From contig CP070777.1 of NCBI GenBank assembly GCA_020346225.1, positions 1,681,403 to 1,745,402 on the forward strand: a stretch of 64,000 bases of DNA. The letters are read 5' to 3'. This document shows, piece after piece, positions 35,024-54,324 of the stretch. The notes below the pieces were generated by a model, which worked only from the letters and a program-made list of their open reading frames with translations, made no database searches and had not been told where the DNA came from. This DNA is from Candidatus Zixiibacteriota bacterium (lineage in GTDB: Bacteria > Zixibacteria > MSB-5A5 > GN15 > FEB-12). The position numbers and the translations under genes are program-made. Within the stretch, counting starts at the first letter, position 1. Every line of letters begins with the position of its first letter.

Positions 35024-36346
35024 TCACTTTCTTATCGGGCCCCAGTTGGGGTTGGAACACTTGCCCACCCGTGTCAACCGCCGCTGGTTGCGCCCGGTGA
35101 TGTCCATGGTGAAAATGTCCTTCGGCCCCAGTCGTGTCGACGAAAAGACGATGTGTTTGCCGTCGGGAGAAAAGTGGGGGTTTTCATTGTGGCCCACCTC
35201 GGTCAGGATGCGGTAGTCGTGCCCGGAGGTGTCGATTGACGCTAGGTCGAATCGGCCGTACTTGGTGCGGCTGACAAACGTTATCCGTTCGCCGCGCGAC
35301 GACCAGATGGGCGAGTCGTTGTAGCCGCCCTGGTAGGTGAGCCGCCGTACGTTGAGGCCGTCCGAATCCATCAGGTAAATCTGAGGGGAGCCGGTGCGGT
35401 CGGACGAGAAGGCTATCATCCTTCCATCCGGCGACCAGGTCGGGGCGGTATCGATTGAGCGGTGACGGGTGAGCCGTTTGATAATCCGGCCGCTCAGGTC
35501 GAGCACGTAGATCTCTGAATTCCCGTCCTTAGTCAAGACGCAGGCGATCTTGTTGCCGTCCGGCGAAACGGCCGGTGCCGCCACGATGCCGCTGTAGGCC
35601 GCCACCTTCTTGATTTCCCGGTTGCCGATGTTGATTCGGTACAGCTGTGGGTCCCCCCCCATGTAGCTGGTAAAGTATATCTCATCCCGGTCCGGGGAGA
35701 AAAAGGGCGATATGTTGATGGATCCGGTGCTCGTCAGCTGCCGCTCGTTGGCGCCGTCATAGTCGGCCAGAAAAAGCTCTTTGCCGCCCCCCACTTCGCG
35801 GCAGTAGACGACTTTGGTGAGGAAGATGCCCTCCTCGCCCGTCAGCGTGTGCACCATCTCGTTGGCGATCTCATGTCCCAGCACCCGCCACTGGCTCTTG
35901 GTTCGCTCCAGGACTCCCTTGGAAAACTGCTGCTGCCTGACGGTATCGAAAAGACGCCACCGCACCCGCAGCTTATCTCCCGGAAACTCCGCCTCCAGCC
36001 TCACCAGGATATCCGCCCCCAGGCGCCGCCAGCCCAGTACCGTCAGTTCGTTGATTTCGTAGGTCTTGAGGTAAAAACTGTCTATCGGGATCAACTCGAA
36101 GTCGGCGTAGAAGTCCAGGTCGCTCCGGACGATGCGGGTGGCGTAGTCCATCAGCACCGAATCGTCATGCGTGATATACCGATTGCCGATATACCTCATG
36201 TCGTCGACACCGATGGGTGTCGCCTGGTATTCGCCGGATATGGTGTCGAAGAAGATGTTGCGAACTTCATCACCCATCTGGGCGGATGCCGTTGAATAAA
36301 AAAGAAAGAAGCCGATTACTAAAGCCAGACGAACGCGCAATGACAT
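35024..36346 (-). CDS. tolB: Tol-Pal system protein TolB
   Basis: 440-aa periplasmic protein from ATG 36346; the longer frame only re-reads the upstream gene. A signal peptide ends at TASAQ. The N-terminal alpha/beta domain (about 25-170) is followed by a six-bladed propeller whose blades carry PD40-type repeats SPDRDEIYFTS, SPDGNKIACV, SPDGRMIAFSS, SSRGERITFVS and SPDGKHIVFSS. TolB docks on Pal and responds to TolA. It starts 5 bp after the TolA-like gene, whose 3' end carries GAGGTAG as ribosome-binding site. Confidence 0.95.
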   Translation of the reverse strand: MSLRVRLALVIGFFLFYSTASAQMGDEVRNIFFDTISGEYQATPIGVDDMRYIGNRYITHDDSVLMDYATRIVRSDLDFYADFELIPIDSFYLKTYEINELTVLGWRRLGADILVRLEAEFPGDKLRVRWRLFDTVRQQQFSKGVLERTKSQWRVLGHEIANEMVHTLTGEEGIFLTKVVYCREVGGGKELFLADYDGANERQLTSTGSINISPFFSPDRDEIYFTSYMGGDPQLYRINIGNREIKKVAAYSGIVAAPAVSPDGNKIACVLTKDGNSEIYVLDLSGRIIKRLTRHRSIDTAPTWSPDGRMIAFSSDRTGSPQIYLMDSDGLNVRRLTYQGGYNDSPIWSSRGERITFVSRTKYGRFDLASIDTSGHDYRILTEVGHNENPHFSPDGKHIVFSSTRLGPKDIFTMDITGRNQRRLTRVGKCSNPNWGPIRK

Positions 36347-36351
36347 GACAT

Positions 36352-37038
36352 CTACCTCGATGTATTGGTGAAAGGTACCGTTATACCGATTATCTCCTCC
36401 CGGAACTCGCGGGGCAGCGGCGGAAACGGCGCCGACTGCTCTATCGCCGCCGTACAAACCCGATCGAAAGCCGGTATGCCGGAAGACTGTTCCACCCTCA
36501 GCTCTATCAGGCGCCCGGAGCGAATCACCTGAAAATACACAACGCACACCACCCGGCCGTCGATAACAACGGTGTTGCGGAAATTTCCGGCGATCTTGTT
36601 GAAGGCCTGAGTGAACCAGTAGGGGTAGTCGAAGGAGGCGTTATCGATCGTGGCACTTCCGAACGGCGAACCGGCACCCGGCGAAGAAACGTCGACCTCC
36701 TTTTTGCCGTTGCCGGAAACCTTGGCTCCGGCGTCCAATCGGGCCGGCTTGTCCGTCTTCGCCCGCTTGGGTTTTTCGACCTTGGCCGGCTGTTTGACCG
36801 TAGTCGGGTCATCAATGGGTATCTCGGGGGTAGCTTCCTCAATCGCCTCGGGGATCTGTACCGGCTCAATCGCGACCGGCTCGGCGGCCGGCGGCGAAAA
36901 ACCCGGCATGGCCACGGCCCTTATCCTGATTACTTCGCCGTAATCGAATTTGCCGGCCGTGTCAAAGGGGGACGACATGACGGCCACCCCGAAAACAACC
37001 AGGTGTAAAACCAGCGACAGTACGATTTCGCGCTTCAT
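36352..37038 (-). CDS. TolA/TonB-like energy transducer
   Basis: 228 aa. One N-terminal membrane helix (about 5-22), then a Pro/Glu/Lys-rich periplasmic linker (about 50-115), then a TonB/TolA C-terminal domain (about 135-222) with YPYWFTQAFNKIAGNFRN, VVYFQVIRSGRLIELRVEQSSG and a final beta-strand. Its position between tolR and tolB makes it the TolA equivalent, carrying proton-driven force from TolQR to TolB-Pal. The linker is much shorter than in E. coli TolA and lacks its long helix, resembling TonB. Confidence 0.87.
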   Translation of the reverse strand: MKREIVLSLVLHLVVFGVAVMSSPFDTAGKFDYGEVIRIRAVAMPGFSPPAAEPVAIEPVQIPEAIEEATPEIPIDDPTTVKQPAKVEKPKRAKTDKPARLDAGAKVSGNGKKEVDVSSPGAGSPFGSATIDNASFDYPYWFTQAFNKIAGNFRNTVVIDGRVVCVVYFQVIRSGRLIELRVEQSSGIPAFDRVCTAAIEQSAPFPPLPREFREEIIGITVPFTNTSR

Positions 37039-37043
37039 ACCGG

Positions 37044-37478
37044 TTACCTCCGGCTCGGGCCGCTTGCCGCCTCCTCTTCGCGACCCGTCACCAGACCGAT
37101 ATCTTCAATGCCGGTCTCTTTGATGAGGGCGATTACCCGGATGGCGGTGCCGTAGGGCACCAGTGAATCGGCGCGCAGGTAAACCGAGGAAACATTCTTG
37201 GCCCGGAGTTCGCTGACCAGGTTGTCTTCGAAATTGTCCAGCCGCGACCAAACGTCATTTATATATATACCGCTCTTTTCGTCGATGGTGACCACCACCC
37301 CTTCGGCCTCCTCGCTGATGGCGGCCGCCCTTGTCTGCGGCAGGTTCACCTCGATTCCCGACTGCAGAAGGGGCGCCGAGATCATGAATATTATAAGGAG
37401 GACCAGGACCACGTCGACCAGATTGGCAATGTTGATATCGGCCAGCGCCCGGTATGTTCTCTGACGCCTTCGCGGCAT
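37044..37478 (-). CDS. tolR: Biopolymer transport protein TolR/ExbD
   Basis: 144 aa from ATG 37478 (a GTG lies one codon upstream). Basic N-terminus, one membrane helix (about 17-38: NLVDVVLVLLIIFMISAPL) containing the proton-path Asp22, and a periplasmic domain with VVVTIDEKSGIYIND and LRADSLVPYG. It works with TolQ as the proton-driven stator of Tol-Pal. The start overlaps the tolQ stop and the TolA-like gene follows 5 bp later. Confidence 0.95.
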   Translation of the reverse strand: MPRRRQRTYRALADINIANLVDVVLVLLIIFMISAPLLQSGIEVNLPQTRAAAISEEAEGVVVTIDEKSGIYINDVWSRLDNFEDNLVSELRAKNVSSVYLRADSLVPYGTAIRVIALIKETGIEDIGLVTGREEEAASGPSRR

Positions 37479-38194
37479 CACTGAACCTCTTTCTTGGCCT
37501 TGGCGATGAAGCTTAAGATGAAATTGTTGGCGAAATCGTTAATGAACTTCAGTTTGTTGTTGGCCCAGTTGAAGGCGATGACGGCCGGAATGGCCGCCCC
37601 CAGGCCGACGATCGTTGCCAGCAAAGCCTCGGCGATGCCCGGAGCAACCACCGCCAGCGAGGCCGAGCCGCGCTCTCCGATCGCCCAGAAAGACTCCATG
37701 ATGCCGACGACGGTACCCAGAAGACCCATAAACGGCGCCGAGTTCGCGGTGCTGGCCAGGAAGATGACTTTTTTTTCCAGAATACCCATCTGCTCCGCCA
37801 GACTCTTCTCCATGGTCATCTCCACGACCTCGAAATCATCGTTGTCCAGCCGGTGAACTTTCTCCTGCAGGGCACCGCCCTGGTTCTTTTTGTCCCACAA
37901 CTCCGTCATCTCCGAGTACCCGGCTAGATAGATTTTCGATACGGGCGAATTGCCGGCCGACTTGGCCTGGCCAACGGAGTCGGCAATCGAACGCGCTCTT
38001 TCAAAACTCTGCACAAATCGCAGGTTATCTGCCTCCACCGTTCGATATTGCCGCCATTTGTGAAATATGATGACCCACGAGACTATCGACATAAAGGTAA
38101 GCACGCAAAGTATGAACAGGCCGAAAGCCGACGTGCTGCCGACAATTTTCCACAGCGATCCTGAGAAAATACCTGCTAAGGTTAACTCGTTCAT
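37478..38194 (-). CDS. tolQ: Biopolymer transport protein TolQ/ExbB
   Basis: 238-aa inner-membrane stator protein with three membrane helices (about 20-43, 145-168, 182-205). The MotA/TolQ/ExbB signature covers STANSAPFMGLLGTVVGIM and VAPGIAEALLATIVGLGAAI. It uses proton motive force with TolR to move the TolA-like protein during outer-membrane constriction. It is the first gene of the Tol-Pal operon and has its own promoter about 80 bp upstream. Confidence 0.95.
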   Translation of the reverse strand: MNELTLAGIFSGSLWKIVGSTSAFGLFILCVLTFMSIVSWVIIFHKWRQYRTVEADNLRFVQSFERARSIADSVGQAKSAGNSPVSKIYLAGYSEMTELWDKKNQGGALQEKVHRLDNDDFEVVEMTMEKSLAEQMGILEKKVIFLASTANSAPFMGLLGTVVGIMESFWAIGERGSASLAVVAPGIAEALLATIVGLGAAIPAVIAFNWANNKLKFINDFANNFILSFIAKAKKEVQ

Positions 38195-38693: not shown

Positions 38694-39824
38694 TTACCTG
38701 CTCTCGATGGTTTCGACGTTGGCTCGCGGTACTATCGCCCGCTGGCCATCCTCAAACTCCACCTGAAGAACGCGCGCCTTCGATTCCGATTCCAGCACCT
38801 GAAGCTGGGGGGGAAGCTCGGTAACCTTGCCCAGCCGGCCGAAATAGGGGTGCCGAATTACCCGCACCGGCGAACCGATTGCCAGACCCTGCATTGAAGC
38901 GGCCGCTTCGGCTTCGGCAGCCGAAGCCTGGTCTTCGACCGGTATCACCAGTTCCGGCCGGATAACGCCGGCCCGAATCTGGGTAGCCCCGTTAATGCAG
39001 GCCATTTTACCCTCGTTTTCCCCAAGCAGGTCAAAGGTTTTTCGGGCCATGTTGATTTGTCCGAAACCCTCGGTTACCACCAGGGTCACGCCGATTTCCT
39101 CTGAGCCGGTAATGGCCACGCCGATATCGTAGCCGAGGAAGTCCCTCAGATCTTTGTCATCGAAACCACCCACGACTATCCCCTTAACGCCGATTCGGGC
39201 TGCCTTCTTGATGGCATCGGCCGTAACCAGAGAACCGCCGACGATCACTTTGTCCTTCATGCTGTCGACGATGAGGTCGTCGGTTAGAACCTGAGTGTTA
39301 TTGGAAACCGACGTTTGAAGCGTTCCTGAGGTTTCACCGCCGATGCCGAAAATGCCCTGGACGAACGCCGCCATACACTGAACGACCACTCCCTCCTCGG
39401 GCACCACTTCGGTTACTTCGCCGCGCAGGTACGCCTTAACCTCGACCGGAATAGGGTGGCCGCGCTGGAGAACCTGGCCGGTGACACTGGATATGGATTC
39501 CAGCGTCCCGTCAATGGTGGCCTGGCAGGGGCTGGAAAACCATTTGATGATCGATTTCTTCAGGGCGATGGTTTCTCCCTCTTTGATCGGGTCGCCCTCC
39601 TTCTTGAGCATCACCTCACTCATGTCTTCCGGCGGTATACCCAGCTTGTTGGCTACATTGAGGGGGACCACGTTGCCGGGAAGGTGCGTCCGCGCCACCA
39701 CATCGTCCGGGTTGACTCTGTCACCCACCTTCACGATAACCTCACCCTTCAGGGGCAGAATCCGGCGTTTTACCACCAGCAACTGCTCGGTGACTTTCAG
39801 ACCCGGTGTATATGCATGTGCCAT
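38694..39824 (-). CDS. Barrel-sandwich/KOW-like protein of the MutL-DUF6754 locus
   Basis: 376 aa from ATG 39824 (AGGGA seven bases upstream); a longer frame runs into the preceding gene. I recognise no named family. Residues about 15-150 show lipoyl-like barrel-sandwich patterns (GEVIVKVGDRVNPDDVVA; SPCQATIDGTLESISSVTGQV; YLRGEVTEVVPEEGVVV), without a lipoylation lysine motif I can identify. A central alpha/beta region (about 178-305) contains VIVGGSLVTADAIKKAARIG and GVTLVVTEGFGQINMA. The C-terminal ~50 residues (GSPVRVIRHPYFGRLGKV ... VEFEDGQRAIVPRANVE) resemble a KOW/SH3 barrel. It is predicted cytosolic and last in a three-gene unit with the MutL-like ATPase. Confidence 0.72.
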   Translation of the reverse strand: MAHAYTPGLKVTEQLLVVKRRILPLKGEVIVKVGDRVNPDDVVARTHLPGNVVPLNVANKLGIPPEDMSEVMLKKEGDPIKEGETIALKKSIIKWFSSPCQATIDGTLESISSVTGQVLQRGHPIPVEVKAYLRGEVTEVVPEEGVVVQCMAAFVQGIFGIGGETSGTLQTSVSNNTQVLTDDLIVDSMKDKVIVGGSLVTADAIKKAARIGVKGIVVGGFDDKDLRDFLGYDIGVAITGSEEIGVTLVVTEGFGQINMARKTFDLLGENEGKMACINGATQIRAGVIRPELVIPVEDQASAAEAEAAASMQGLAIGSPVRVIRHPYFGRLGKVTELPPQLQVLESESKARVLQVEFEDGQRAIVPRANVETIESR

Positions 39825-39847
39825 TCGATTATCCCTATCTGAGACTG

Positions 39848-40606
39848 CTATTTCGACTTTCTCAATTTCGTCACAGCTACAATCAAGATGATCAAAACAA
39901 AGACGGCGATGCTCAGGTAAAGTACCGTCCAAGACCGCTCGGTCAGAATATTTCCCTCTTCATCTGTCTTGATATCGGCTACCCTGAGTTGCTCGCGCGG
40001 AATCTTGCTCTTGATGTCCTCAGTGCTGAAGGAAGCCGCGATATCGCTGAAAACAGCTTTGCTCTGCTCGAACAGCGAATCGGTCGAGTAGAAATAGAAG
40101 GTGGCAATCCCCCGGTCGTAAAATTTCCACATGACCAGATTCTTCTTGTAAGCTTCCTGGCCCTGGTATATTTCATTCAGCACCGTCACCACTTGGTTGG
40201 CCCGGTCGTAGCTGGGGGTGTTTGATTTGAGGTCGGCCAGGAAACCGCCGGTCTCCATGTAGCTGATGTCGCCTTTGAAGCTCTCGCTCAGTTCGCTCAG
40301 GACGGAGTCAATCTGCTGCTGGTTCAACTGTCCGACCGTGTCCACGGTGAGAAAGAGGTAGTTTCCCTCGTGGAACGGGCCCGAAGTTTTCGGGGCAAAC
40401 ACGGCGTCATATCGGTACATCTCCGGACGGGCGTTGCTCGCATATAGATACAAGTCGGCGGTGTTGTAATCGATCTGCTCCCAGTTATCCGGGAAGGTTA
40501 AGTAGAACTTGCCGGCCAGGCTCACGTATGTGCCGGCCGCGGAGCCGGCGGCACCGATGAGCACCATCAAACCTGAAACAATAATGAGTCTTAAGATCTT
40601 TTGCAT
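39848..40606 (-). CDS. Exported protein with C-terminal membrane anchor
   Basis: 252 aa from ATG 40606; GAAGGTGG eight bases upstream decides this start over the GTG at 40627. A signal peptide (about 1-25, ending AGSAAG) is followed by a ~195-residue domain beginning YVSLAGKFYLTFPDNWEQI, with conserved-looking aromatic strands and a helical part (QLNQQQIDSVLSELSESF). A C-terminal helix (about 225-244) and a basic tail KLRKSK anchor it, placing the domain in the periplasm. No family recognised. It lies between the ATPase and the barrel-sandwich protein and may be the periplasmic arm of the system. Confidence 0.68.
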   Translation of the reverse strand: MQKILRLIIVSGLMVLIGAAGSAAGTYVSLAGKFYLTFPDNWEQIDYNTADLYLYASNARPEMYRYDAVFAPKTSGPFHEGNYLFLTVDTVGQLNQQQIDSVLSELSESFKGDISYMETGGFLADLKSNTPSYDRANQVVTVLNEIYQGQEAYKKNLVMWKFYDRGIATFYFYSTDSLFEQSKAVFSDIAASFSTEDIKSKIPREQLRVADIKTDEEGNILTERSWTVLYLSIAVFVLIILIVAVTKLRKSK

Positions 40607-40623
40607 AAATAAACCACCTTCGT

Positions 40624-42474
40624 TCACAATTTATCGGCGGGGTAGATGTTCAGTTCCGTCATCCACTTCTTGAGGTATGTAACGCGGTCATCTTCGCTCA
40701 GGGTGGAGAGATCGAAGGGGCGTCCCCGGCCGTCAAGAACGATACCGACCACGCCGCCGTGCAGTTCCTTCACCACCTTGTTACCCTTGCCGGCACCGAC
40801 ATCGAAGCCCCGCTCCGGCTCCAAAGTGGCTCTGGCGGTCATCGGAAGGCCGTTTTCCTGAAGTCCCAGTTCGAAACGTTTCATCTCCAGATACTCCAGT
40901 GTACCGGAGACCGGTCCGCCCGGCAACTCGATGCTGTATTTGAGTACCGGACCCGCCTTCTTGGTGGTGCCGGACGGCGCCACGCACGTGCCCAGGTGGA
41001 TGAGGCAGTCTTTTTCGAATACCTCCGTGGCCGCCTGCGCCTGCACCTCGGTTAGAACGCCCAGCTGCGGCATCATGAAGATGGAATCGACCGCCAGCCG
41101 GGTCACGCCTTCGGGAAGGAAGGCATCGATCATCATCAGGGCCGATTGCTGACGACGTGGTGCGTGAGACAAAACGCCGCCCGAACCGATCAACATATCC
41201 AGCGTCATCATGTTAACGATGGTGGCTCCCGAGGCCGACTGGTCGAAAGCATCAGCGATAGTTCGCTGCTGCTGCACCCCTTTGAGAACGGTGGCGAAAT
41301 TCTTGTGCTGGATTAAAGCCAGCCGGAGAGCTTCCTTGGCGATAGCCTGCTCGAATATCAGCTCTTCCATTGACTGGGGGATGGTCGTCGGGCGAATCAT
41401 CTTGTTCTTGACGCGGTTCCGCAGGTCACGCTCGTCCATCTTGAACGGCACCCAGCGCATTACCATCGGCAGCGTCGCTTCCGCGAACACGTTTGAGATC
41501 GAGTACGACATGCCCAGGTTCGCCGAAACCGTGCGGTTGAACACCGGGGTCTCACTATCCGGGCGGAAGACTGAAAAGACATCGGTGGTCGCCCCGCCGA
41601 TATCGACACCGACAGCCTCGATACCGTATTTATTGGCAATGGTCTGGATAATCAGGCCTACCGCGGCGGGCGTTGGCATGATGGGAGCATCCGTCCACGA
41701 CATCAGCTTCCTGTAACCGGGAGCCTGAGCCATAACGTGTTCCATGAACAGCTCGTGGATTTCCTCACGAGCCGGGCCCAGGTTCTCTCGCTCCAGAACC
41801 GGCCTGAGATTGGCCACCGTTTTGAGATCAACTTTGTCGGCCAGGGTATCGTGGACCAGCGTCGCGGCTTCCTTGTTGCCGGCGTATATGATCGGCAACT
41901 GATAGCTGGAGCCGAGACGCGGCTTCGGGTCAGCCGCGGATATCAGCTCCGCTATCTCAACCACGTGGGTCATGGTGCCGCCATCGATTCCGCCGGACAG
42001 CAGAATCATGTCCGGCCGCAAGGCCCGGATACGCTCTATCTGCTGGTGGGGGAGACGCTTATCGTTGGAAGCGATCACGTCCATGACGATCGCTCCGGCG
42101 CCCAGCGCCGCCCGCTCGGCCGATTCGGCCGTCATCGAGCGCACCACCCCCGCCACCATCATCTGAAGGCCGCCGCCGGCCGATGAAGTCGAAATGTAAA
42201 CGTCGGTGCCGGTCTTCCCCTGGCTGGGAGAAATGAAACGCCCGTTCTCGTCCAGCAGCTTGCGCCCGGATAATTCTTCCACCTCTGCCACGGCGTTAAG
42301 CGCACCCATGGTGACGTCCTCAAAAGGAGCCTCGACGGTGGTGGGAGCTTCACCTCTTACTATCAATCGAAATTCGCCGTTGATGTATTCGATCAGGATT
42401 GCCTTGGTTGTGGTCGATCCACAGTCAGTCGCAACGATTACCTTGATATCATCAGGATTTTCGAACCTTGCCAT
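40624..42474 (-). CDS. MutL-family ASKHA ATPase (glutamate mutase L-like)
   Basis: 616-aa cytosolic protein of the actin/Hsp70/sugar-kinase ATPase superfamily, MutL branch. Phosphate-1 motif DCGSTTTKAIL at residues 18-28, phosphate-2 motif VGVDIGGATTDVFS with Asp291, and a conserved SGGIDGG block between. The named family includes GlmL, which accompanies B12-dependent glutamate mutase, but no mutase subunit genes are here. Instead it is transcribed with the exported protein and barrel-sandwich protein and faces the 12-gene membrane operon. It may act as ATP-driven activator or assembly factor for those complexes; this is inference from context. Confidence 0.85.
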   Translation of the reverse strand: MARFENPDDIKVIVATDCGSTTTKAILIEYINGEFRLIVRGEAPTTVEAPFEDVTMGALNAVAEVEELSGRKLLDENGRFISPSQGKTGTDVYISTSSAGGGLQMMVAGVVRSMTAESAERAALGAGAIVMDVIASNDKRLPHQQIERIRALRPDMILLSGGIDGGTMTHVVEIAELISAADPKPRLGSSYQLPIIYAGNKEAATLVHDTLADKVDLKTVANLRPVLERENLGPAREEIHELFMEHVMAQAPGYRKLMSWTDAPIMPTPAAVGLIIQTIANKYGIEAVGVDIGGATTDVFSVFRPDSETPVFNRTVSANLGMSYSISNVFAEATLPMVMRWVPFKMDERDLRNRVKNKMIRPTTIPQSMEELIFEQAIAKEALRLALIQHKNFATVLKGVQQQRTIADAFDQSASGATIVNMMTLDMLIGSGGVLSHAPRRQQSALMMIDAFLPEGVTRLAVDSIFMMPQLGVLTEVQAQAATEVFEKDCLIHLGTCVAPSGTTKKAGPVLKYSIELPGGPVSGTLEYLEMKRFELGLQENGLPMTARATLEPERGFDVGAGKGNKVVKELHGGVVGIVLDGRGRPFDLSTLSEDDRVTYLKKWMTELNIYPADKL

Positions 42475-42825: not shown

Positions 42826-44112
42826 TTGAAGAGAACTTGCCCAACTCGCCCTGAGCTATCAAGCCGGCAATTCAAATCCCTGCTCGCGGCAGCCGCACTT
42901 TTACTGATATTCCCCGGCAGTTTATTGGCCCAGCAAACCTTCGTCCAAACGGATACGATCACATCCGCTGACACGCTGGGGGTCCAGTACACGCCGGCCC
43001 CTCCTCAAAATGTAGTCGCCATGGATACCCCCAACGACGGGGGCGGATCCATAATCATAACCTGGGGCCCCTCTCCCGATGACTTTGACGGCGGTAAGGT
43101 TAAACTGTATAGAATCTTGCGAGCAGAGTACAACGGTGGCCAACCGGGTGAATTTACGGAAGTGGGGGATGTTCCGTCCGGAAAAGCGGAGTACGAAAAC
43201 GAAGACGGTAATACCACTGACGACATCATGTATCTTTATAGGGTCATGGCCGTCAACCGGATGACTAATGAAGCGGGGGAAATTGAGGAATATACATCCG
43301 AGTCGCCAGCCACCGACCCGGTCACCTCATCCGCCCAGTGGTTCGACTCAAGGCGTATCAACGCCCTGGTCGGTGTTATTCTCCTGTGCTCCTTCATAAT
43401 CTATTTCATTCAGCAGGCGAGGGCCGGTAAGGAGCTCTATATCCGGAAGATTGCCGGTATGGAAGCTGTCGATGAAGCCGTCGGCCGGGCCACCGAAATG
43501 GGACGCAGCATCTATTATGTCTCGGGTCTGGGCGACATGGACAACATGCAGACCATTGCGTCCATGACGATTCTCGGCCGCGTTGCGGAGCTGGCCGCGC
43601 AGTATGAAACCCATTTGGCGGTGCCTGTCTGCCGCTCGCTGGTTATGGTTACCGGCCGCGAAGTGGTCAAAGAGGCCTACTCCAAGGTCGGCCGACCGGA
43701 TGCGTTTAAACCCGACCAGGTTCACTATTTAACCGATGATCAGTTCGGATACGCCGCCGCCGTCGACGGCATGTTTGTCCGCGAAAAGCCAGCCACGATC
43801 TTCTATATGGGTCAGTTCTTCGCCGAATCGTTGATTCTGGCGGAAACAGGCAACTCCATTGGAGCTATTCAGATAGCCGGAACGGCTATGCCCGCTCAGC
43901 TGCCTTTCTTTGTGGCTGCGTGCGATTACACCCTGATAGGGGAGGAGCTGTTTGCGGCTTCGGCTTATCTTTCGCGTGAGCCTAAGCTGCTTGGCTCGCT
44001 AAAAGGCCAGGACATCGGCAAAGGTCTTATTTTAATAGCTCTGATTGTGGGCATGTTACTGGAAACCTTTGGCATCTGGCAGTTTTCAAACCTCTTTTCG
44101 GTGATTGACTGA
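42826..44112 (+). CDS. Module protein A1: FN3 + DUF6754-like membrane protein
   Basis: 428 aa. Signal peptide (1-36, long basic n-region), then a fibronectin type III-like domain (about 57-165; IIITWGPSPDD, KLYRILRAEY, YLYRVMAVNR), a membrane helix (178-196), a DUF6754-like domain (200-395) and a last helix (399-416). The order puts FN3 in the periplasm and the conserved domain in the cytosol. Shared motifs: AVDEAVGRATEMGR (214-227), FFAESLILAETGN (331-343), CDYTLIGEELFAASAYL (366-382) and GSLKGQD (390-396). The start is TTG with AAGGA eight bases upstream; no closer ATG exists. Biochemical function is unknown. First gene of a 12-gene operon. Confidence 0.82.
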   Translation: MKRTCPTRPELSSRQFKSLLAAAALLLIFPGSLLAQQTFVQTDTITSADTLGVQYTPAPPQNVVAMDTPNDGGGSIIITWGPSPDDFDGGKVKLYRILRAEYNGGQPGEFTEVGDVPSGKAEYENEDGNTTDDIMYLYRVMAVNRMTNEAGEIEEYTSESPATDPVTSSAQWFDSRRINALVGVILLCSFIIYFIQQARAGKELYIRKIAGMEAVDEAVGRATEMGRSIYYVSGLGDMDNMQTIASMTILGRVAELAAQYETHLAVPVCRSLVMVTGREVVKEAYSKVGRPDAFKPDQVHYLTDDQFGYAAAVDGMFVREKPATIFYMGQFFAESLILAETGNSIGAIQIAGTAMPAQLPFFVAACDYTLIGEELFAASAYLSREPKLLGSLKGQDIGKGLILIALIVGMLLETFGIWQFSNLFSVID

Positions 44113-44114
44113 GT

Positions 44115-44765
44115 ATGCGTAGAGAAGTACCGCTGCTGATAACCGCCGTCGTCGGAATAACCTTCGTCGTGAAGTACTTCGTACCGCACTTTCCGTTCAA
44201 TCGAATGGATGCCTGGTTCGCTGACTGGTTCTCCATCGTCCAGGCTTGCGCCATCGTGCTGGGCGCCCTGAACCTGCTTAAGCTATCCGCTCTGAAAGTA
44301 ATCGGGCAGAAATCCGGCTGGGGTTATGCCCTTGTCATCATACTGTCGTTTATGCTGATAACAGTCATCGGTCTGGCCGAGGGTTCCGACTATCGTGACC
44401 CCGGTACCAGCTTCGATTGGCTCTATGTGAACATGTTTATCCCGCTTTCGGCGACCATGTTTTCGATCCTGGCCTTCTTTGTAGCATCGGCATCATACCG
44501 AGCTTTCCGGGCCCGCAATTACGAAGCAACCGTGCTCCTGATCGCTGCCTTTTTTGTTATGATCGGTCGAGTGCCGGTCGGCGACGTGATTACCGGTTTC
44601 ATGCCGGAAGGGTATCGTTTCTCCGATCTGGCCATCTGGATTATGGATTATCCGCAGACAGCCGGTCAGAGGGCTATTATGATCGGAATTGGCTTGGGAG
44701 TAGTATCGACTTCTCTGCGCGTAATACTCGGCATTGAAAGAGCCCATATTGGGACTGGAGACTAG
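44115..44765 (+). CDS. Module protein B1: polytopic membrane protein
   Basis: 216 aa with about six membrane helices (4-24, 38-58, 68-90, 103-128, 137-153, 188-208). Blocks shared by all three B proteins: FSILAFFVASASYRAFRARN in the fourth helix and its basic loop, and AGQRAIMIGIGLGVVSTSLR with ILGIER at the C-terminus. The short loops and Arg-rich turn suggest a packed membrane subunit rather than an enzyme. Starts 2 bp after A1. No known family recognised. Confidence 0.75.
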   Translation: MRREVPLLITAVVGITFVVKYFVPHFPFNRMDAWFADWFSIVQACAIVLGALNLLKLSALKVIGQKSGWGYALVIILSFMLITVIGLAEGSDYRDPGTSFDWLYVNMFIPLSATMFSILAFFVASASYRAFRARNYEATVLLIAAFFVMIGRVPVGDVITGFMPEGYRFSDLAIWIMDYPQTAGQRAIMIGIGLGVVSTSLRVILGIERAHIGTGD

Positions 44766-45788: not shown

Positions 45789-46505
45789 ATGGAAGCATTT
45801 TTCGAACATTTCAGACTCTGGTTGGCCGCCTTCCTGACCCTGGGAATCTTCTCCTTCCTTTATAAGGACAATCCCTGGTATAAACTCACCGAGGCGATTT
45901 TCGTCGGTATCTCGGCCGGCTACTGGTTCGTGGTGCTCTTCTGGGACAATTTCCACGGCAAGTTCTGGGTTGGCGCAGGTGAATACAGCATTAACTGGGT
46001 CGTGGCCAAGTTGACGGGGGCTCAGGCGCCCCCGCCACCCGACAGCAGCATAGACTTCATGCTGTGGGTGGGGGCTTTCCTCGGCCTTTTGATGCTTCTC
46101 AGGCTGGTGCCGAAAATCGGCTGGATCTCGCGCTGGCCGCTGGCCTTCATTGTCGGCTCCACCGGCGGTCTCTGGCTCATAAATTACTTTGCTTCAAATG
46201 TAATGGTTCAGGCCCAGGCGACTATGGTGCCGCTGTTTTCGTCGGCCTTCGGAACCGGGTTTGACCAGAACGCCGATGCTGTCATCGGTGCGCTGATCAT
46301 ATTCCTTGGAACTTTCAGCGGCCTGGTTTATTTCTTCTTTTCCAAGGCTCATACCGGCGTCTTCGGCGGCACGGCCAGGGTGGGTGTGTTCTTTCTGATG
46401 ATCACCTTCGGCGCCTCGTTCGGATATACCGTGATGAGTCGTATGTCGCTTTTGATTGGACGTATCGATTACCTTTTGGGTGACTGGCTGGGAATGATAA
46501 AGTAG
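45789..46505 (+). CDS. Module protein D1: polytopic membrane protein
   Basis: 238 aa with about six membrane helices. Blocks shared by all three D proteins: FLYKDNPWYKLTEAIFVGISAGYW in the first helical hairpin, WISRWPLAFIVGSTGG in the middle, and LVYFFFSKAHTGVFGG with ITFGASFGYTVMSRMSLLIGRI at the end. A short Pro-rich loop (APPPPDSS) lies between helices two and three. This is the shortest D protein. Its TAG stop overlaps the next module's first gene by one base. Confidence 0.75.
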   Translation: MEAFFEHFRLWLAAFLTLGIFSFLYKDNPWYKLTEAIFVGISAGYWFVVLFWDNFHGKFWVGAGEYSINWVVAKLTGAQAPPPPDSSIDFMLWVGAFLGLLMLLRLVPKIGWISRWPLAFIVGSTGGLWLINYFASNVMVQAQATMVPLFSSAFGTGFDQNADAVIGALIIFLGTFSGLVYFFFSKAHTGVFGGTARVGVFFLMITFGASFGYTVMSRMSLLIGRIDYLLGDWLGMIK

Positions 46506-47764
46506 TGTTCTTACGGCCGCGGACAATCTCGCCAGTCAAATTCATATCAATGACATCAAAGCTCTTTCTAGCCTTGCTGCTGCTGCCTTTCTCGGGCCTC
46601 GCCCAGGATGACCCGGCCGGGGTTGATATGCTGGACACCGCGGTGGTCGTGGTGGCGCCTCCGACTTCGGTTATTGCTGTAGACCACAAGTACGACAAGG
46701 GCGAAAGAATCGACCTGACCTGGGTGCCGTCAATTGATGACCAGCTCGTCGAGGGCAAGGTCCTGGCTTATCGAATATATCGCATAGTCAACGACGGCGG
46801 GCCGCAGCTTGTCGCTGATGTCGCTACCGGCGTCGGTCCGTACCAGTACGCCGATGAGGACCTGCACCGTGATTCCATTTATAGCTACTATGTCGCAGCG
46901 GTCTCGAGTAACTATGAAGCCGCCTCGACGCGCACCGCGCCCATGTCGCCGCAGCGCGAATGGATGAATCTGGACAGAAAATGGCTGTTCCTTATCGCTC
47001 TGATAGTCGGCGGCTCGGTGCTGTTGTTTATCACCGCCGCGCGTCGCGGTACAAAACTGTTCGTGCGTAAGATTGCCGGTCTCGAGGCGGTTGATGAAGC
47101 CGTCGGCCGGGCGACCGAGATGGGTCGGCCCATCCTGTTCGTTCCCGGGATCCGTGACATGGATGATGTTCAGACCCTGGCTGCCCTGACCATTCTGGGA
47201 CGGGTATCGCGGGTTATCGCCGATTACGATACCCGCATCTTCATGCCGACTTCGCGGTCCCTGGTTATGACCGCCGGACGGGAAACCGTCAAGGCCGCTT
47301 ATCAGGCGGCCGGCCGACCGGACAAATACAGCGATGATATGGTGACCTACTACACCGACGAGCAGTTCGGTTATGTGGCGGCGGTCGACGGCGTAATGGT
47401 GCGTGAAAAACCGGCCACCGTGTTTCTGCTGGGAGCCTTCTTCGCCGAGTCGCTTATTCTGGCTGAGACCGGCAACTATATCGGGGCTATCCAGATCGGC
47501 GGTACGGCCCGTCCGGCGCAGCTGCCTTTCTTCATCGCCGCCTGCGATTTCACCCTGATCGGTGAAGAGCTCTTTGCCGCCTCGGCCTATCTCTCCGGCG
47601 AACCCATGCAGCTTGGTTCGCTCAAGGGGCAGGATGTTGGTAAAGCCATCGCCATGATCGCCATTATCGTCGGCGCCGTGGCCATCACGATCGGCGAGGC
47701 GTGGGATGTCGAATTCATGCATGATATAGTAACTTGGTTGAGTGGTGTCTTTTCCACCAGGTGA
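46505..47764 (+). CDS. Module protein A2: FN3 + DUF6754-like membrane protein
   Basis: 419 aa, same architecture as A1: signal peptide, FN3-like domain (RIDLTWVPSIDDQLVEG, YRIYRIVND), membrane helix, DUF6754-like domain, final helix. All A motifs are kept: AVDEAVGRATEMGR, AFFAESLILAETGN, CDFTLIGEELFAASAYL and GSLKGQD. GTG at 46505 is adopted because it overlaps the D1 stop and gives an n-region as long as A1's; ATG 46550 would give a shorter ordinary signal but has no ribosome-binding site. It is the closer of the two paralogues to A1 by eye. Confidence 0.8.
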   Translation: MFLRPRTISPVKFISMTSKLFLALLLLPFSGLAQDDPAGVDMLDTAVVVVAPPTSVIAVDHKYDKGERIDLTWVPSIDDQLVEGKVLAYRIYRIVNDGGPQLVADVATGVGPYQYADEDLHRDSIYSYYVAAVSSNYEAASTRTAPMSPQREWMNLDRKWLFLIALIVGGSVLLFITAARRGTKLFVRKIAGLEAVDEAVGRATEMGRPILFVPGIRDMDDVQTLAALTILGRVSRVIADYDTRIFMPTSRSLVMTAGRETVKAAYQAAGRPDKYSDDMVTYYTDEQFGYVAAVDGVMVREKPATVFLLGAFFAESLILAETGNYIGAIQIGGTARPAQLPFFIAACDFTLIGEELFAASAYLSGEPMQLGSLKGQDVGKAIAMIAIIVGAVAITIGEAWDVEFMHDIVTWLSGVFSTR

Positions 47765-47771
47765 TTGACGG

Positions 47772-48494
47772 ATGTTTAAACGACGGATTCCGCTTTTCAT
47801 TCTCGCTTTTGTCGGCACCTTGCTGATAGTCTCCGTCTTTATCCCCCCGATGGAAAATCTGGGTGAGGATTTTACTCTGTTTTTCGATATCATTGCCGTT
47901 TTTGCCTTCTTCCTCGGCGGCGGTAATCTGGTGCGCATTCACTTCGGCAAACTCCGGCGCCGCAAGAAGGACTGGGGTTTCTCAATCGTCACCCTCGTGG
48001 CCTTCTTTTTCATGTTGACTATCGGTCTGCTGAAAGTGAGCAGTGTCGGCGGCGTCTGGAACATCCCCCTGCTGGGAATTGGCGACCCGGCGGCCATCGC
48101 CGCCTCTCCGACCACCGAAGGTTCCTGGTTTCAGGAGACGTTCAACTATGTGATTAACCCGCTGCAGTCGACCATGTATGCCCTGCTGGCGTTCTTCGTG
48201 GCCTCGGCCTCGTACCGCGCTTTCCGGGCCAAGAATCGTGAGGCCACCCTTCTGCTGCTAGCCGCCTTTATAATTCTTCTCGGTCGCACGCCGTTCGGTA
48301 TGGAGCTCACCCGGTGGGTCCCGGAATCATTCTCGGTTCTTCAGATACCGAACATGGCCATCTGGATTATGAACTCGCCGAACCTGGCCGGGCAGAGGGC
48401 CATTCTCATCGGCATCGGTCTGGGTGTGGTCTCTATGTCGCTCAGGCTGATACTGGGCATTGAACGAAGCTATCTGGGAGAGGACCGTGGGTAA
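47772..48494 (+). CDS. Module protein B2: polytopic membrane protein
   Basis: 240 aa, homologous to B1 with about six membrane helices. It keeps YALLAFFVASASYRAFRAKN, then LLLLAAFIILLGRTPFG, and AIWIMNSPNLAGQRAILIGIGLG ... ILGIERSYLG. An extra ~20-residue loop (VWNIPLLGIGDPAAIAASPT) lies before the fourth helix. Its last 8 bp overlap the start of C2. Confidence 0.75.
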   Translation: MFKRRIPLFILAFVGTLLIVSVFIPPMENLGEDFTLFFDIIAVFAFFLGGGNLVRIHFGKLRRRKKDWGFSIVTLVAFFFMLTIGLLKVSSVGGVWNIPLLGIGDPAAIAASPTTEGSWFQETFNYVINPLQSTMYALLAFFVASASYRAFRAKNREATLLLLAAFIILLGRTPFGMELTRWVPESFSVLQIPNMAIWIMNSPNLAGQRAILIGIGLGVVSMSLRLILGIERSYLGEDRG

Positions 48495-49479
48495 GAGACA
48501 CTGGATATTGCTGGGCGCCATCGTCGCGGTGATAATAATTGCCGCCGTATTGTGGCTCTTCCCCAAAGAGCGGTGGGGCACCGTCTTCTCGCTGCTGCTG
48601 GTGTTCGGAGGCCTCGTGGCCCTTCTCTTGCGGTCTTTGTATGCCAAGGAAGTGGAACGAAGAATTATCTTTCTGTTTATACTCGTGGCCGTCGCCGCTC
48701 CCATCCTGTTCCCGATTACGTTCACCGAGAAACCGACAGCTGTCGTTCAGGCGGTTTTCGACAAAATCGAAAATCTTCCGTCGGGTTCCACCGTGCTGCT
48801 TTCGTTTGACTTTGACCCGGCCATGGCGCCTGAAGTCCAGCCGATGGCCAATGCTATCAGCCGTCACTGTCTTGAAAAAGGTCATAAAGTAATTTTCATG
48901 TCGCTGTGGGCCACCGGACAGGCGTTGCTGTCGCAGTCACTCAGCGATTATATCCTGCTCGGCTTTCCCGATAAGGTTGACGGCGTCGATTACGTCAATA
49001 TCGGTTACAAGGCGGGCAATGAAGGCGTCCTCAACGTCATTGTCAGCAATTTCGAAAAAATGTTCCCGACCGATGTCAACAGCGTACCGCTGAAAGATAT
49101 CCGGATATTCGATGATATAGCGTCGGCCAAGGACGTTGACTTCATCATGTCCATCGGGGGCGGCATGCCCGGACCCAAAGAATGGGTGCTGTTTGTCGGT
49201 GACCCGGGCGATGTCGATGTTGGTGTCGGCGTCGCTGCCGTGGTGGCGCCGCAGATGTATCCTTATTACCCGGCCCAGGTTATCGGTATCCTGGGTGGTG
49301 TCAAGGGCGCCGCCGAATATGAGTACGCGCTGAAGGACGCATATCCCGTGTTTGCCGATATGGATACCCCGGGTCTGCGCATGATGGGACCGCAGACGCT
49401 GGCTCATATCGTAATCCTGTCGTTTATCGTTATTGGTAACATAATCTATTTCCGGGGTCGCCGGGAGAGGAAGCAGTGA
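48487..49479 (+). CDS. Module protein C2: membrane-anchored alpha/beta protein
   Basis: 330 aa from the GTG at 48487, chosen for GGGAGAGG just upstream; a longer TTG-start frame from 48460 lies inside B2. Layout as C1: three N-terminal helices, soluble domain, C-terminal helix and basic tail. Shared blocks: SGSTVLLSFDFDPAMAPEVQPM, GVDYVNIGYKAGNEG, VDFIMSIGGGMPGPKEWV, YPYYPAQVIGILGGVKGAAEYE, then AHIVILSFIVIGN. Confidence 0.75.
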   Translation: MGKRHWILLGAIVAVIIIAAVLWLFPKERWGTVFSLLLVFGGLVALLLRSLYAKEVERRIIFLFILVAVAAPILFPITFTEKPTAVVQAVFDKIENLPSGSTVLLSFDFDPAMAPEVQPMANAISRHCLEKGHKVIFMSLWATGQALLSQSLSDYILLGFPDKVDGVDYVNIGYKAGNEGVLNVIVSNFEKMFPTDVNSVPLKDIRIFDDIASAKDVDFIMSIGGGMPGPKEWVLFVGDPGDVDVGVGVAAVVAPQMYPYYPAQVIGILGGVKGAAEYEYALKDAYPVFADMDTPGLRMMGPQTLAHIVILSFIVIGNIIYFRGRRERKQ

Positions 49480-50288
49480 AGAAATCAACGCTTATAGTCA
49501 TGGCGGTCGTCGTCGTCCTCTTCCTGTTGAGCTGGGTGCTCAAGGCCTCGGCTCTGCAGCCAGAGCAGGGCAGTTACATTCTCCGGGGCTTTCTGGTGAC
49601 TTTCGCGGCTTTTCTGACTCTGGCGGTCATGTCCTTCCTGTATCAGGACAACCCGTTTTACAAGTTCGCTGAACACCTGTTCGTGGGAGTATCGGCGGCT
49701 TTCTGGATGTGTATGGGTTTCTGGACGACTATAGTCCAGAACCTGATACCGCGGCTGTCAACCAGCCTGGCCGACTACTTCATGGTGCCGCAGCGGCCGG
49801 AGGGCCTCAACTTATTTTTCTACACCCCCGTTATTCTGGGTATCCTGCTGCTGATGCGCCTGTCTCCGCGCGGGGGATGGATCTCCCGCTGGCCGCTGGC
49901 CTTCATCGTTGGCACCACCGCGGGACTTAATTTTATCCGTTACCTGCGGTCCGACTTTATCAAGCAGATTTCTTCTACTTTCGTGCCGCTCCTGGGGACG
50001 CAGTGGGAGGGCATCGGTCCGTTTCTGTCCAACCTCGACCTGTCCGCCTCCGGTCAGCTGGTGCTGCTTCTGAGCAACTGGGTCGTTTTCCTTGGCGTTT
50101 TCACGGGGCTCATCTATTTCTTCTTCTCCAAAGAGCACAAAGGCGCCTTTGGGGTCGGGTCGCGGGTCGGCATCTGGATTCTCATGATCACCTTCGGGGC
50201 CTCGTTCGGTTACACCGTGATGGGGCGTATATCACTGCTGGTGGGTCGAATCACCTTCCTCTTTGGGACCTGGCTGGAACTGATTTAA
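49476..50288 (+). CDS. Module protein D2: polytopic membrane protein
   Basis: 270 aa, GTG start overlapping the C2 stop by 4 bp (GTGA) with GGGAGAGGAAG upstream. Homologous to D1 through FLYQDNPFYKFAEHLFVGVSA, WISRWPLAFIVGTTAG and LIYFFFSKEHKGAFG with ITFGASFGYTVMGRISLLVGRI. It has an additional N-terminal membrane helix (about 5-22) absent from D1. A 32-bp gap with a good ribosome-binding site separates it from A3. Confidence 0.75.
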   Translation: MKKSTLIVMAVVVVLFLLSWVLKASALQPEQGSYILRGFLVTFAAFLTLAVMSFLYQDNPFYKFAEHLFVGVSAAFWMCMGFWTTIVQNLIPRLSTSLADYFMVPQRPEGLNLFFYTPVILGILLLMRLSPRGGWISRWPLAFIVGTTAGLNFIRYLRSDFIKQISSTFVPLLGTQWEGIGPFLSNLDLSASGQLVLLLSNWVVFLGVFTGLIYFFFSKEHKGAFGVGSRVGIWILMITFGASFGYTVMGRISLLVGRITFLFGTWLELI

Positions 50289-50320: not shown

Positions 50321-51790
50321 ATGAAGCTTAAGTTATTCGTTGTTTCCCTTGTTGTGCTGCTAAGCTTCAGTATCGCATTCGCCCAGGAAGACACCCTCAC
50401 CGTACCCCCCATTCCGCCGGACAGCGCTCTGCTTCCGGCTGCCGTGACCGGTCTCGTTGCCAAGGACACCGACAACGATCACGGCCACGCCATAACGCTC
50501 AAGTGGCAGCCGTCGGCGGATGACGGAGCGGGGAGACAATCGGTGGCGATGTACGAAGTCTTCAGGTGGGTGCCTGACCTGATGACGCGAATCCCCGCCC
50601 TTCGCGATACTCTTGAATACCTCAAACTACGGACCGGCGACGGCTGGAGTCCGCCGGAGCCGGGCAGCAGAACCGACTCAATCCATAACGTCTTCGCGAG
50701 CCTTGACGATGCTCAGCTTGAGGAGCGAAAGGAGTCACTCGAGCAAACGATATCGCAGGCTATTCGCGATCTGCCGGCCGCTCATGCCGCCTATCCTGAA
50801 GACGGCGACTGGCAGCAGGTGGCTGTTGCGCCGGCCGGGTCTGCTACGGCCGCCGACGTCGGTACCAAGGAGAAGGACACACCCGACTATCTTCCGGACT
50901 ACAGCGATTTCTATTACCGGGTCGATGCTGTCACGGCCGATCCGGCTATCCGAACCGCGTCGGAGATCGTCGGTCCGGTGCAGAGCTATGGTCAGTGGTT
51001 CAACAAGGGGCGGCTTGCCGTTTCCGTCTTCGTGCTGATCTTCGGTCTCCTCACCATCTTCTTCGTTCAGCATGCGCGCCGCGGAGCCGATTTGTACGTT
51101 CGCCCCATGGCCGGTATCGAGGCTGTCGACGACGCTATCGGCCGGGCCACCGAGATGGGACGCCCCATACTGTACGTCCTGGGCCTGGGCACGGCTGACA
51201 TGATCGCTACCATCGCTTCATTCACCATTCTGGGCCGGGTGGCCAGGCGAGTGGCCGAATACCAGACCAAGTTGATAGTTCCCGCGTATGAACCGGTGGT
51301 GATGGCGGTGGCCCAGGAGGTCGTGAAAACGGCGTACTACGATGCGGGGCGGCCTGACGACTACGACGAGGATATCGTCTTCTTCGTAACGAGTCTGCAG
51401 TTTGCGTATGTCGCCGCCGTGAACGGCCTGATGCTGCGTGAACTGCCGGCCACCAACGTCTACATGGGTAAGTTCTTCGCCGAATCGCTGCTTCTGGCGG
51501 AGACCGGCGCCGTGGCCGGTTCAATTCAAATCGCCGGAACCGACGAAATAGCTCAGATTCCTTTCTTCATCGTCGCCTGCGACTATACTCTGATCGGTGA
51601 AGAACTGTACGCGGCCTCGGCATATCTGGGACGCGAACCGATCCTGCTGGGATCGCTTAAAGCTCAGGACTGGGCCAAGGCCGGGGTAATCGCGCTGGCT
51701 GTGGCCGGGCTGGCGCTGTCCAATCTGGCCGTAGCCTATGACTGGTCCTGGGCCAGTTCCATCGTGGATTTCTTTCGGGTAGTGGATTAG
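50321..51790 (+). CDS. Module protein A3: expanded FN3 + DUF6754-like membrane protein
   Basis: 489 aa from ATG 50321 (GAGGGAG upstream); the longer upstream frame overlaps D2. Signal peptide ends at AFAQ. The FN3-like region (HAITLKWQPSADDG ... MYEVFRW ... DFYYRVDAVTA) is interrupted by about 80 extra, mostly charged residues, including LDDAQLEERKESLEQTI, a probable helical insertion. After one helix the DUF6754-like domain keeps AVDDAIGRATEMGR, FFAESLLLAETG, CDYTLIGEELYAASAYL and GSLKAQD. A last helix ends the protein. Confidence 0.82.
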   Translation: MKLKLFVVSLVVLLSFSIAFAQEDTLTVPPIPPDSALLPAAVTGLVAKDTDNDHGHAITLKWQPSADDGAGRQSVAMYEVFRWVPDLMTRIPALRDTLEYLKLRTGDGWSPPEPGSRTDSIHNVFASLDDAQLEERKESLEQTISQAIRDLPAAHAAYPEDGDWQQVAVAPAGSATAADVGTKEKDTPDYLPDYSDFYYRVDAVTADPAIRTASEIVGPVQSYGQWFNKGRLAVSVFVLIFGLLTIFFVQHARRGADLYVRPMAGIEAVDDAIGRATEMGRPILYVLGLGTADMIATIASFTILGRVARRVAEYQTKLIVPAYEPVVMAVAQEVVKTAYYDAGRPDDYDEDIVFFVTSLQFAYVAAVNGLMLRELPATNVYMGKFFAESLLLAETGAVAGSIQIAGTDEIAQIPFFIVACDYTLIGEELYAASAYLGREPILLGSLKAQDWAKAGVIALAVAGLALSNLAVAYDWSWASSIVDFFRVVD

Positions 51791-51803: not shown

Positions 51804-52616
51804 ATGAAAAGACAAATTCCAGTAGTACTCGTGGGATTGTTCGGATTGTTCATGATCTTCCAGTATTTCGTTCCTCATGAATCTTCCGAATGGATCTACG
51901 AATTTCTTCTCGACTGGACCATAATCATCGGCATCTTCGCCATGGCCCTCGGTCTGTGGTCGCTGTATCGCGTCTCGGTTGAGAAGATAAGGACACGCAA
52001 GCCTGCCTGGGGTTACAACTACCTGACTCTGGTAGGCCTGTTCACCATGATGCTCTTTGGCTTTACCTCGCAGAACGGTGAGGCCTGGGGCTGGTTTTTC
52101 CCGTTCATGGTGGCGGCCAACTTGACCTTGGTGATGATCATTCAGGCGTCAGTTACCAAGGGCCATCGAGGACTGTTCCTCGGCACAGCCGGAGTATGCC
52201 TGGCCGTCTGCATAGTGATCATAATCTTCGATGATACCTGGGGCTTTCATTTTGAGACGGCGGAAGGGCTTCAGAGTACCATGTTCCGGGCTTTCTTCGA
52301 CAACATCCTGATTCCGATCTTCGCCACGATGTTCTCGCTGCTGGCTTTCTTTATCGCCTCGGCGGCCTACCGTGCCTTCAGGGCGCGCAACGTGATGGCC
52401 ACCCTGTTGCTGCTGGCGGCGCTGATCGTCATGCTCCGATTCAACCCCTATTTTGGACCGCTTTCGCCGTATATGTCGAAAGCCTCCAACTGGCTGATGA
52501 ATGTGCCCAATCTGGCCGCCCAGAGGGCCATCATTATAGGCGTTGGTCTCGGTATTGTGGCGACGGCCCTGAAGGTGATTCTGGGCATCGAACGCGGATA
52601 CATGGGGAAAGGATAA
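51804..52616 (+). CDS. Module protein B3: polytopic membrane protein
   Basis: 270 aa (GGAGGAT upstream). Homologous to B1/B2 by FSLLAFFIASAAYRAFRARN and WLMNVPNLAAQRAIIIGVGLG ... ILGIERGYMG. It has two more hydrophobic segments than B1 (FMVAANLTLVMIIQASV and LFLGTAGVCLAVCIVIII), giving about eight helices. Function unknown, as for the other B proteins. Confidence 0.75.
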   Translation: MKRQIPVVLVGLFGLFMIFQYFVPHESSEWIYEFLLDWTIIIGIFAMALGLWSLYRVSVEKIRTRKPAWGYNYLTLVGLFTMMLFGFTSQNGEAWGWFFPFMVAANLTLVMIIQASVTKGHRGLFLGTAGVCLAVCIVIIIFDDTWGFHFETAEGLQSTMFRAFFDNILIPIFATMFSLLAFFIASAAYRAFRARNVMATLLLLAALIVMLRFNPYFGPLSPYMSKASNWLMNVPNLAAQRAIIIGVGLGIVATALKVILGIERGYMGKG

Positions 52617-53508: not shown

Positions 53509-54324
53509 ATGGACTTTTCGACTTTTCTATGGACGACGTTCGCTGCCTTCCTGACCCTGGCGACCTATTCGTTCCTGTACAAGGACAATCCCTTTTACAA
53601 GATTGCCGAGCATATCGTCACCGGCGTGGCGGCCGGATACTTTGCCATTTTGCTGTGGCATAACGGCCTCGTTCCCAAGCTGTGGTTCCAGCGCATCGAT
53701 GACGGCGACTGGTGGTGGCTGTGGCTCAATTCTTCAAAGCCGTGGTATCTCATACCGGCTATCCTCGGCATGCTGATGTGGACCAGGTTTTCCAAGAAGT
53801 ACCAGTGGGTTTCGCGCTGGCCGATGGCCCTGTACATCGGCATCTCGGCCGGAATCGCCGTGCCGCTTGAAATGTCCAACCGGGTGAACAAGCAGCTCTA
53901 CGATACCATGGCCGATCTGAACTGGGCCAACTTCTTCGGCCAGGGGACCTATGCCATGTTCGATACCACCTCCGGTCTCTCCCAGTTGCTGATTGTCATA
54001 GGTGTGGTAGCGGCCCTGATATACTTCTTCTTTTCCAAGGCCCATACCGGCCTTTTCGGCGGGGTGGCCAAAGTGGGCATATGGACTCTGATGATTGGCT
54101 TCGGAGCCTCCTTCGGCTTTACGGTGATGGCTCGTATTTCGCTTTTCATCAACCGTATGCAATTCCTGGGAGGATGGGGCCAGGAGGCCTTCAATGCTTC
54201 CGGAACCACGCCCAATCCCAATTACAGCGCTTGGTATCAGGTGTTCTTCTGGCTTCTGGCTCTGCTGGTGATCGGATACGCCGCCTACGAGATTGTCAAA
54301 CACCTCAGGTCCAGGAAGACCTGA
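53509..54324 (+). CDS. Module protein D3: polytopic membrane protein
   Basis: 271 aa (GAGG before the ATG). Homologous to D1/D2 through FLYKDNPFYKIAEHIVTGVAAGY, WVSRWPMALYIGISAG and LIYFFFSKAHTGLFGG with GFGASFGFTVMARISLFINRM. It carries an extra C-terminal membrane helix (WYQVFFWLLALLVIGYAAYE) and a basic tail, whereas D2 has its extra helix at the N-terminus. Last gene of the operon, followed by a terminator. Confidence 0.75.
   Translation: MDFSTFLWTTFAAFLTLATYSFLYKDNPFYKIAEHIVTGVAAGYFAILLWHNGLVPKLWFQRIDDGDWWWLWLNSSKPWYLIPAILGMLMWTRFSKKYQWVSRWPMALYIGISAGIAVPLEMSNRVNKQLYDTMADLNWANFFGQGTYAMFDTTSGLSQLLIVIGVVAALIYFFFSKAHTGLFGGVAKVGIWTLMIGFGASFGFTVMARISLFINRMQFLGGWGQEAFNASGTTPNPNYSAWYQVFFWLLALLVIGYAAYEIVKHLRSRKT

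Follow-up and report, generated by a model that had tools for sequence, protein, structure and literature searches.

A near-invariant block in the DUF6754 domain of a protein that heads a conserved four-gene membrane unit

Genes and features at the locus

Four genes, A, B, C and D, form a conserved membrane unit that occurs in three tandem copies in the window, by which is meant the whole stretch of 64,000 nucleotides analysed (Table 1). The first gene of the unit encodes protein A, and its three versions (A1, A2 and A3) had been noted to have in common a near-invariant block, CDYTLIGEELFAASAYL, and two further motifs, FFAESLILAETG and GSLKGQD; each of the three is found in each protein, with one correction to the block, as the start first given for it, 43924, is that of the Asp codon and the Cys codon lies one codon earlier.

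Table 1. Features at the locus (positions in the window; residue numbers are those of A1)
Feature	Position	Strand	Remarks
Tol-Pal type cluster	35024-38194	-	MotA/TolQ/ExbB, ExbD/TolR, TonB C-terminal and TolB-like proteins
412-aa protein	38694..39932	-	no Pfam match; recurrent array neighbour
MutL-family protein	40624..42474	-	PF13941, E 2.4e-126; GlmL-related; divergent array neighbour
A1	42826..44112	+	DUF6754 between two membrane helices, preceded by a hydrophobic N-terminal segment and Fn3; listed with a TTG start
FFAESLILAETG in A1	43816..43851	+	residues 331-342; F331, E334, L336, E340 invariant
Block CDYTLIGEELFAASAYL in A1	43921..43971	+	residues 366-382
GSLKGQD in A1	43993..44013	+	residues 390-396; D396 invariant, K399 just downstream
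Invariant core positions, first half			207, 220, 224, 234, 250, 267, 289, 306, 319, 329, 331, 334
Invariant core positions, second half			336, 340, 352, 358, 361, 362, 367, 374, 379, 381, 396, 399
B1	44115..44765	+	polytopic membrane protein, below every Pfam cut-off
C1	44768..45775	+	membrane-anchored, soluble domain of ~215 residues, below every Pfam cut-off
D1	45789..46505	+	polytopic membrane protein, no Pfam match
A2	46505..47764	+	second DUF6754 protein
FFAESLILAETG counterpart in A2	47438-47473
Block in A2	47543-47593
GSLKGQD counterpart in A2	47615-47635
B2	47772..48494	+
C2	48460..49479	+	start uncertain, overlaps B2
D2	49476..50288	+
A3	50321..51790	+	third DUF6754 protein; ATG start at 50321 inferred, longer ORF listed from 50003
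FFAESLILAETG counterpart in A3	51473-51508
Block in A3	51578-51628
GSLKGQD counterpart in A3	51650-51670
B3	51804..52616	+
C3	52628..53506	+
D3	53509..54324	+
Small basic protein	54741-55091		after the last D

The B, C and D proteins are related within each set (31-45% identity among B1-B3, C1-C3 and D1-D3), and none of the nine in the window reaches a Pfam cut-off. Among their relatives the Pfam matches listed are weak; TMD0_ABC, the most frequent, appears in 9 of 21 members of the B alignment with an E of 1.3e-5 at best, and B1 of the window scores 19.1 bits for it against a cut-off of 27. Near-invariant arginines of B, R129 and R132, are located in a short loop that separates hydrophobic segments, and the last part of D holds R211 and R218; in the hydropathy plots of C1 and C2 adjacent helices run together. 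A search of PADLOC-DB with A1, B1, C1, D1 and two neighbours gave no match at E 0.01, an absence from a library that proves little.

The arrangement itself is highly constant. From 245 A records, 121 with less than 3 kb of downstream sequence were set aside and 3 duplicates were dropped; in the remaining 121, B, C and D are all present downstream of A in 115 and follow in that order in 113, and thus the constant partners of A are membrane proteins. Six of the eight exceptions lack one or more of B, C and D, for which assembly gaps may be responsible, while the two that fail on order (loci L128 and L154) are probably cases of merged ORFs. At another locus (L122, 9419-11597) approximately 2.2 kb with two other ORFs separate B and C of an otherwise compact unit. 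The small basic protein encoded after the last D in the window, which is below the Pfam cut-offs, recurs at 13 other unit loci.

Domain organization and predicted structure of protein A

Profile PF20539 (DUF6754, a family name that carries no function) matches A1, A2 and A3 with 417.5, 400.6 and 375.4 bits (gathering cut-off 27; E-values 1e-112 to 1e-125) over positions 2-256, 2-254 and 3-250 of its 257, a span that includes the block. To this domain protein A adds an Fn3 domain, of the kind found in titin, contactin and others, and hydrophobic segments on either side of the core. The Fn3 assignment is borne out by structure, as residues 55-170 of A1 superimpose on titin with a Z of 13.0 (rmsd 2.2 over 96 residues), and by profile matches of A1 to titin chains down to 1.3e-16; this part, which does not contain the block, is the variable half of the protein. 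No NCBIfam model matched A1, A2 or A3 at E 0.1. The 27 sequence matches of the profile in the PDB at E up to 1 all lie in the Fn3 part, none of them extending beyond profile position 155, and the sequence search therefore revealed no relative of the DUF6754 part with a solved structure.

In A1 the core, residues 199-403, is flanked by hydrophobic segments at about 176-200 and 394-421, and the charges, read from hydropathy and not from a topology experiment, suggest that the core of A is placed in the cytosol and the soluble domain of C outside. We infer that DUF6754 has an alpha/beta fold and faces the cytosol, with a membrane helix holding it on each side. In A3, two extra segments within the core (286-307 and 355-373) rise above the hydropathy threshold.

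The best of five full-length AF2 models of A1 reached 75.8, the others 64-66; the Fn3 part is good, parts of the core are fair and residues 301-370 are poor (mean pLDDT per ten residues 46-66, versus 78-86 over 371-410). A model of the DUF6754 domain by itself was worse than the full-length model (mean pLDDT 54), its second half being unreliable. Comparison of the full-length model with the PDB listed the Fn3 part alone, and the 50 viral structure matches listed for it are mostly Fn3, phage tail or unnamed proteins. The block begins ~15 residues beyond the last strand and ends ~12 residues short of the C-terminal membrane helix. The full-length model draws two helices here that are joined by a turn at C-D-Y-T-L-I-G-E, of which the turn and the helix preceding it are weakly supported (helices at 356-365, 373-383 and 386-414, broken at the turn).

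Conservation of the block

No other part of the DUF6754 domain of protein A is as well conserved as the block, and this conservation is at the level of protein, not of DNA. Between A1, A2 and A3, 15-16 of its 17 residues are identical as opposed to 6-8 of the 17 codons; a degenerate DNA pattern for GEEL(F/Y)AA has 3 matches in the 64 kb where 0.01 would be expected. Relatives were collected as 246 hits, of which 6 partial ones were dropped, the 240 near full length giving 198 distinct sequences and a non-redundant subset of 123 (<90% identical; pairwise identities down to 43%, with a median of 61%). As the loci were built from the best matches of the genome searches, this set favours high-scoring sequences; ten genomes in which the best score was low were included deliberately, two of which (G118 and G259) gave partial matches only. 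Over the 123 sequences the block ranks first among the 189 windows of 17 residues in the 205-residue core, with a mean column entropy of 0.26 bit versus 1.10 for the core.

The original prediction of an invariant Cys-Asp and an invariant Glu-Glu pair, to be given up if these residues varied freely in a wide alignment, holds for one residue of each pair. Asp367 and Glu374 are present in 198/198 sequences; Cys366 is kept in 193 and is Thr in the other five, and Glu373 is kept in 192 and is Asp in the other six (three and four such replacements, respectively, in the subset of 123). Gly372 is found in 197 of the 198, with Ala in one, and Ser379, Tyr381, D396 and K399 never vary. An earlier set of 111 sequences gave the same picture for Cys366 (Thr in 4), with Asp367, Gly372, Glu373 and Glu374 unchanged throughout.

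These residues do not stand in an otherwise variable cytosolic domain, as had been supposed. Invariant residues occupy 24 of the 205 core positions in the 198 sequences, six of them acidic and three basic, with neither Cys nor His among them, and the core aligns without gaps in 27 rows, where its median identity is 64% as compared to 34% for the Fn3-side part. The statement that much of the A proteins differ is accordingly right for the part outside (identity A1/A2 41/120, A1/A3 41/123) and wrong for the cytosolic core (141/205 and 126/205); the contrast was misplaced because the variable half is the Fn3 side. Constraint is domain-wide and does not alone single out a catalytic site.

Spread and paralogues

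All 132 genomes searched in the phylum of the window, whose near relatives carry the title Zixiibacteriota, contain DUF6754, as do 140 of the 147 searched in the Stahlbacteria/WOR-3 phylum (that of genome G134), with one to seven copies per positive genome. The domain is absent from the 14 control genomes searched, no relative was confirmed in viral contigs, and none was found in the plasmids or phages searched; a contig scan with a single sequence, which detects close relatives only, returned 12 loci titled Zixibacteria, Stahlbacteria or WOR-3. No paper was found by name for DUF6754 or PF20539.

The genome of the window has five copies, two of which are solo, with open frames of 298 and 283 aa that are too short to hold Fn3 as well as DUF6754. 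Both the paralogues of the array and the solo copies retain the block. A tree of 128 sequences has near-pure clades for the copies at array position 2 (20/24, support 0.995), at position 3 (20/24, support 1.0) and for one solo class (21/23, support 0.998), so that at least these copies separated early and have been maintained as distinct lineages since; array position 1 forms no such clade.

Neighbouring genes

The divergently encoded MutL-family protein is related to GlmL, though it scores 231 bits where the NCBIfam cut-off for GlmL is 475. Of 41 genomes searched, 38 have its gene; in 16 of these an A gene is no more than 3 kb away, and in the other 22, some of which are assembled in many contigs, none is that close. 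At four loci (L041, L045, L124 and L129) the MutL-family gene and that of the 412-aa protein are located upstream of A-B-C-D units on the same strand, an order which suggests that both share a pathway with the unit. The gene of the 412-aa protein adjoins the Tol-Pal type cluster in the window.

One class of solo units has different company. At its 20 loci (L113, L133-L143 and L145-L152) the unit is followed by a gene for a nucleotidyltransferase in 18, with MetK at 17 and SahH at 16, one member per neighbour cluster having been confirmed with Pfam; by eye, the nucleotidyltransferase is GlgC-like.

Possible roles of the block

Among the roles considered, the likeliest appears to be that of a juxtamembrane element which couples the alpha/beta domain to the membrane partners of A, and it is put forward tentatively, as one that falls short of being probable. 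The invariant Asp367, Glu374, Ser379 and Tyr381 would hold the turn, and the helix of small residues (AASA) would be packed against the rest of the domain and make putative contacts with loops of B and D; in this way a change of the alpha/beta domain, with ligand bound or not, could be passed on to the membrane part. The arginines R129 and R132 of B and R211 and R218 of D might pair with the invariant acids that A has in excess. Two observations do not sit well with coupling: the two extra core segments of A3 are left unexplained by a simple layout with two helices, and the invariant residues found after each of five proposed strands (G234; P267; Q306; G329, F331 and E334; G352 and Q358) would fit the crest of a ligand site better than a pure interface, provided that strands 4 and 5 are right.

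Those residues lead to the second-ranked role: DUF6754 would be an enzyme or sensor of Rossmann-like fold, and the block one wall of a pocket along the carboxyl edge of the sheet, where D367 and E374 would touch a nucleotide-type or other small ligand. In the predicted structure, helices and strands alternate in the first half of the core, as in universal stress proteins and SAM methyltransferases, and the weak structural matches are to alpha/beta folds binding small ligands, among them these two and PLP enzymes; the gap-free core and the presence of MetK and SahH beside one solo class can be read in the same sense. However, the best of these matches (Z 6.7, rmsd 3.5 over 104 residues) was obtained with the low-confidence domain model and is below the level that the tool regards as meaningful, and none of A1, A2 and A3 has a Pfam match to a nucleotide-binding family. 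Further, while strands 1-3 are taken from the full-length model, strands 4 and 5 were placed by eye (~323-328 and ~345-351), and the model draws strands at 335-341 and 344-350 which replace the fourth; the distance of the block from the last strand also speaks against a pocket wall. A pocket is rather doubtful, and the key interface that had been named beside catalysis and metal binding remains as good a reading.

It is less probable still that the block serves the structural core only, by packing of its small-residue helix or by formation of a DUF6754 dimer, and takes no part in functional chemistry. Conservation across the whole domain would agree with this, as would A377, A378, S379 and A380 within the block and the almost unvarying G372. 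But D367, E374, S379 and Y381, all of them polar, show no variation at all, whereas purely structural sites usually tolerate residue swaps, and the core is far better conserved than the outside part of the very same proteins.

A site in which D367, E373 and E374, together with E334, E340 or D396, might bind a divalent cation such as Mg2+ is improbable; the excess of invariant acids over bases and the replacement of E373 by Asp alone would suit it, and against it stands a core with no invariant His or Cys. The conserved His or Cys ligands expected of a site of the Zn or Fe type are likewise missing from the 24 invariant positions, which weakens a classical metal site of that kind as it does catalysis by cysteine. 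Least credible of all is a Cys366 nucleophile activated by Asp367, which the near-universal Cys and universal Asp might seem to offer, since a catalytic Cys should be universal and Thr takes its place in A genes that are followed by B, C and D (for example at L041 and L045), and since no His is invariant.

Whichever role is correct, it is probably the same in all paralogues, because the block hardly differs between them. By itself the block is the hallmark of a domain that is already catalogued, as one of unknown function; interest is raised by its setting in a four-gene membrane unit whose other three proteins in the window fall below the Pfam cut-offs. Near-universal retention in two little-studied phyla and paralogues that are old and separately kept make the unit a good target, for which the block designates the residues to mutate first: D367, E374, S379 and Y381.

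The A-B-C-D unit as a possible membrane machine

Taking coupling by the block one step further, A-B-C-D might be a four-subunit inner-membrane machine, not described before and basic to at least two phyla, in which DUF6754 would respond to a ligand, the domain of C would play the matching part across the membrane and the block would be the lever by which the ligand state reaches the membrane part. This larger proposal is speculative, and we consider it somewhat unlikely as a whole. Within it, the C domain would possibly have the same fold as DUF6754.

By eye, the order of strands and helices in the C domain resembles that in DUF6754, a likeness for which homology is unsupported. A and C had also seemed, by eye, to be alike in a stretch ahead of the last membrane helix; hhalign, run with whole A profiles, gave P of 0.099 and 0.017, and the best ungapped profile match between the A core and C scored 6.9, compared to a mean of 6.7 (sd 2.0) for shuffled and 7.3 for reversed profiles. 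The suspected pairing is outside the six listed profile matches, of which three of the top four are roughly collinear. Homology of B and D was not supported by hhalign either (P 0.087 and 0.19; 0.02 for the unrelated pair A/D). Both relationships are kept as a possibility. The C domain has, in C1 and its relatives, well-kept acidic motifs of its own, DYDP and PELQPM.
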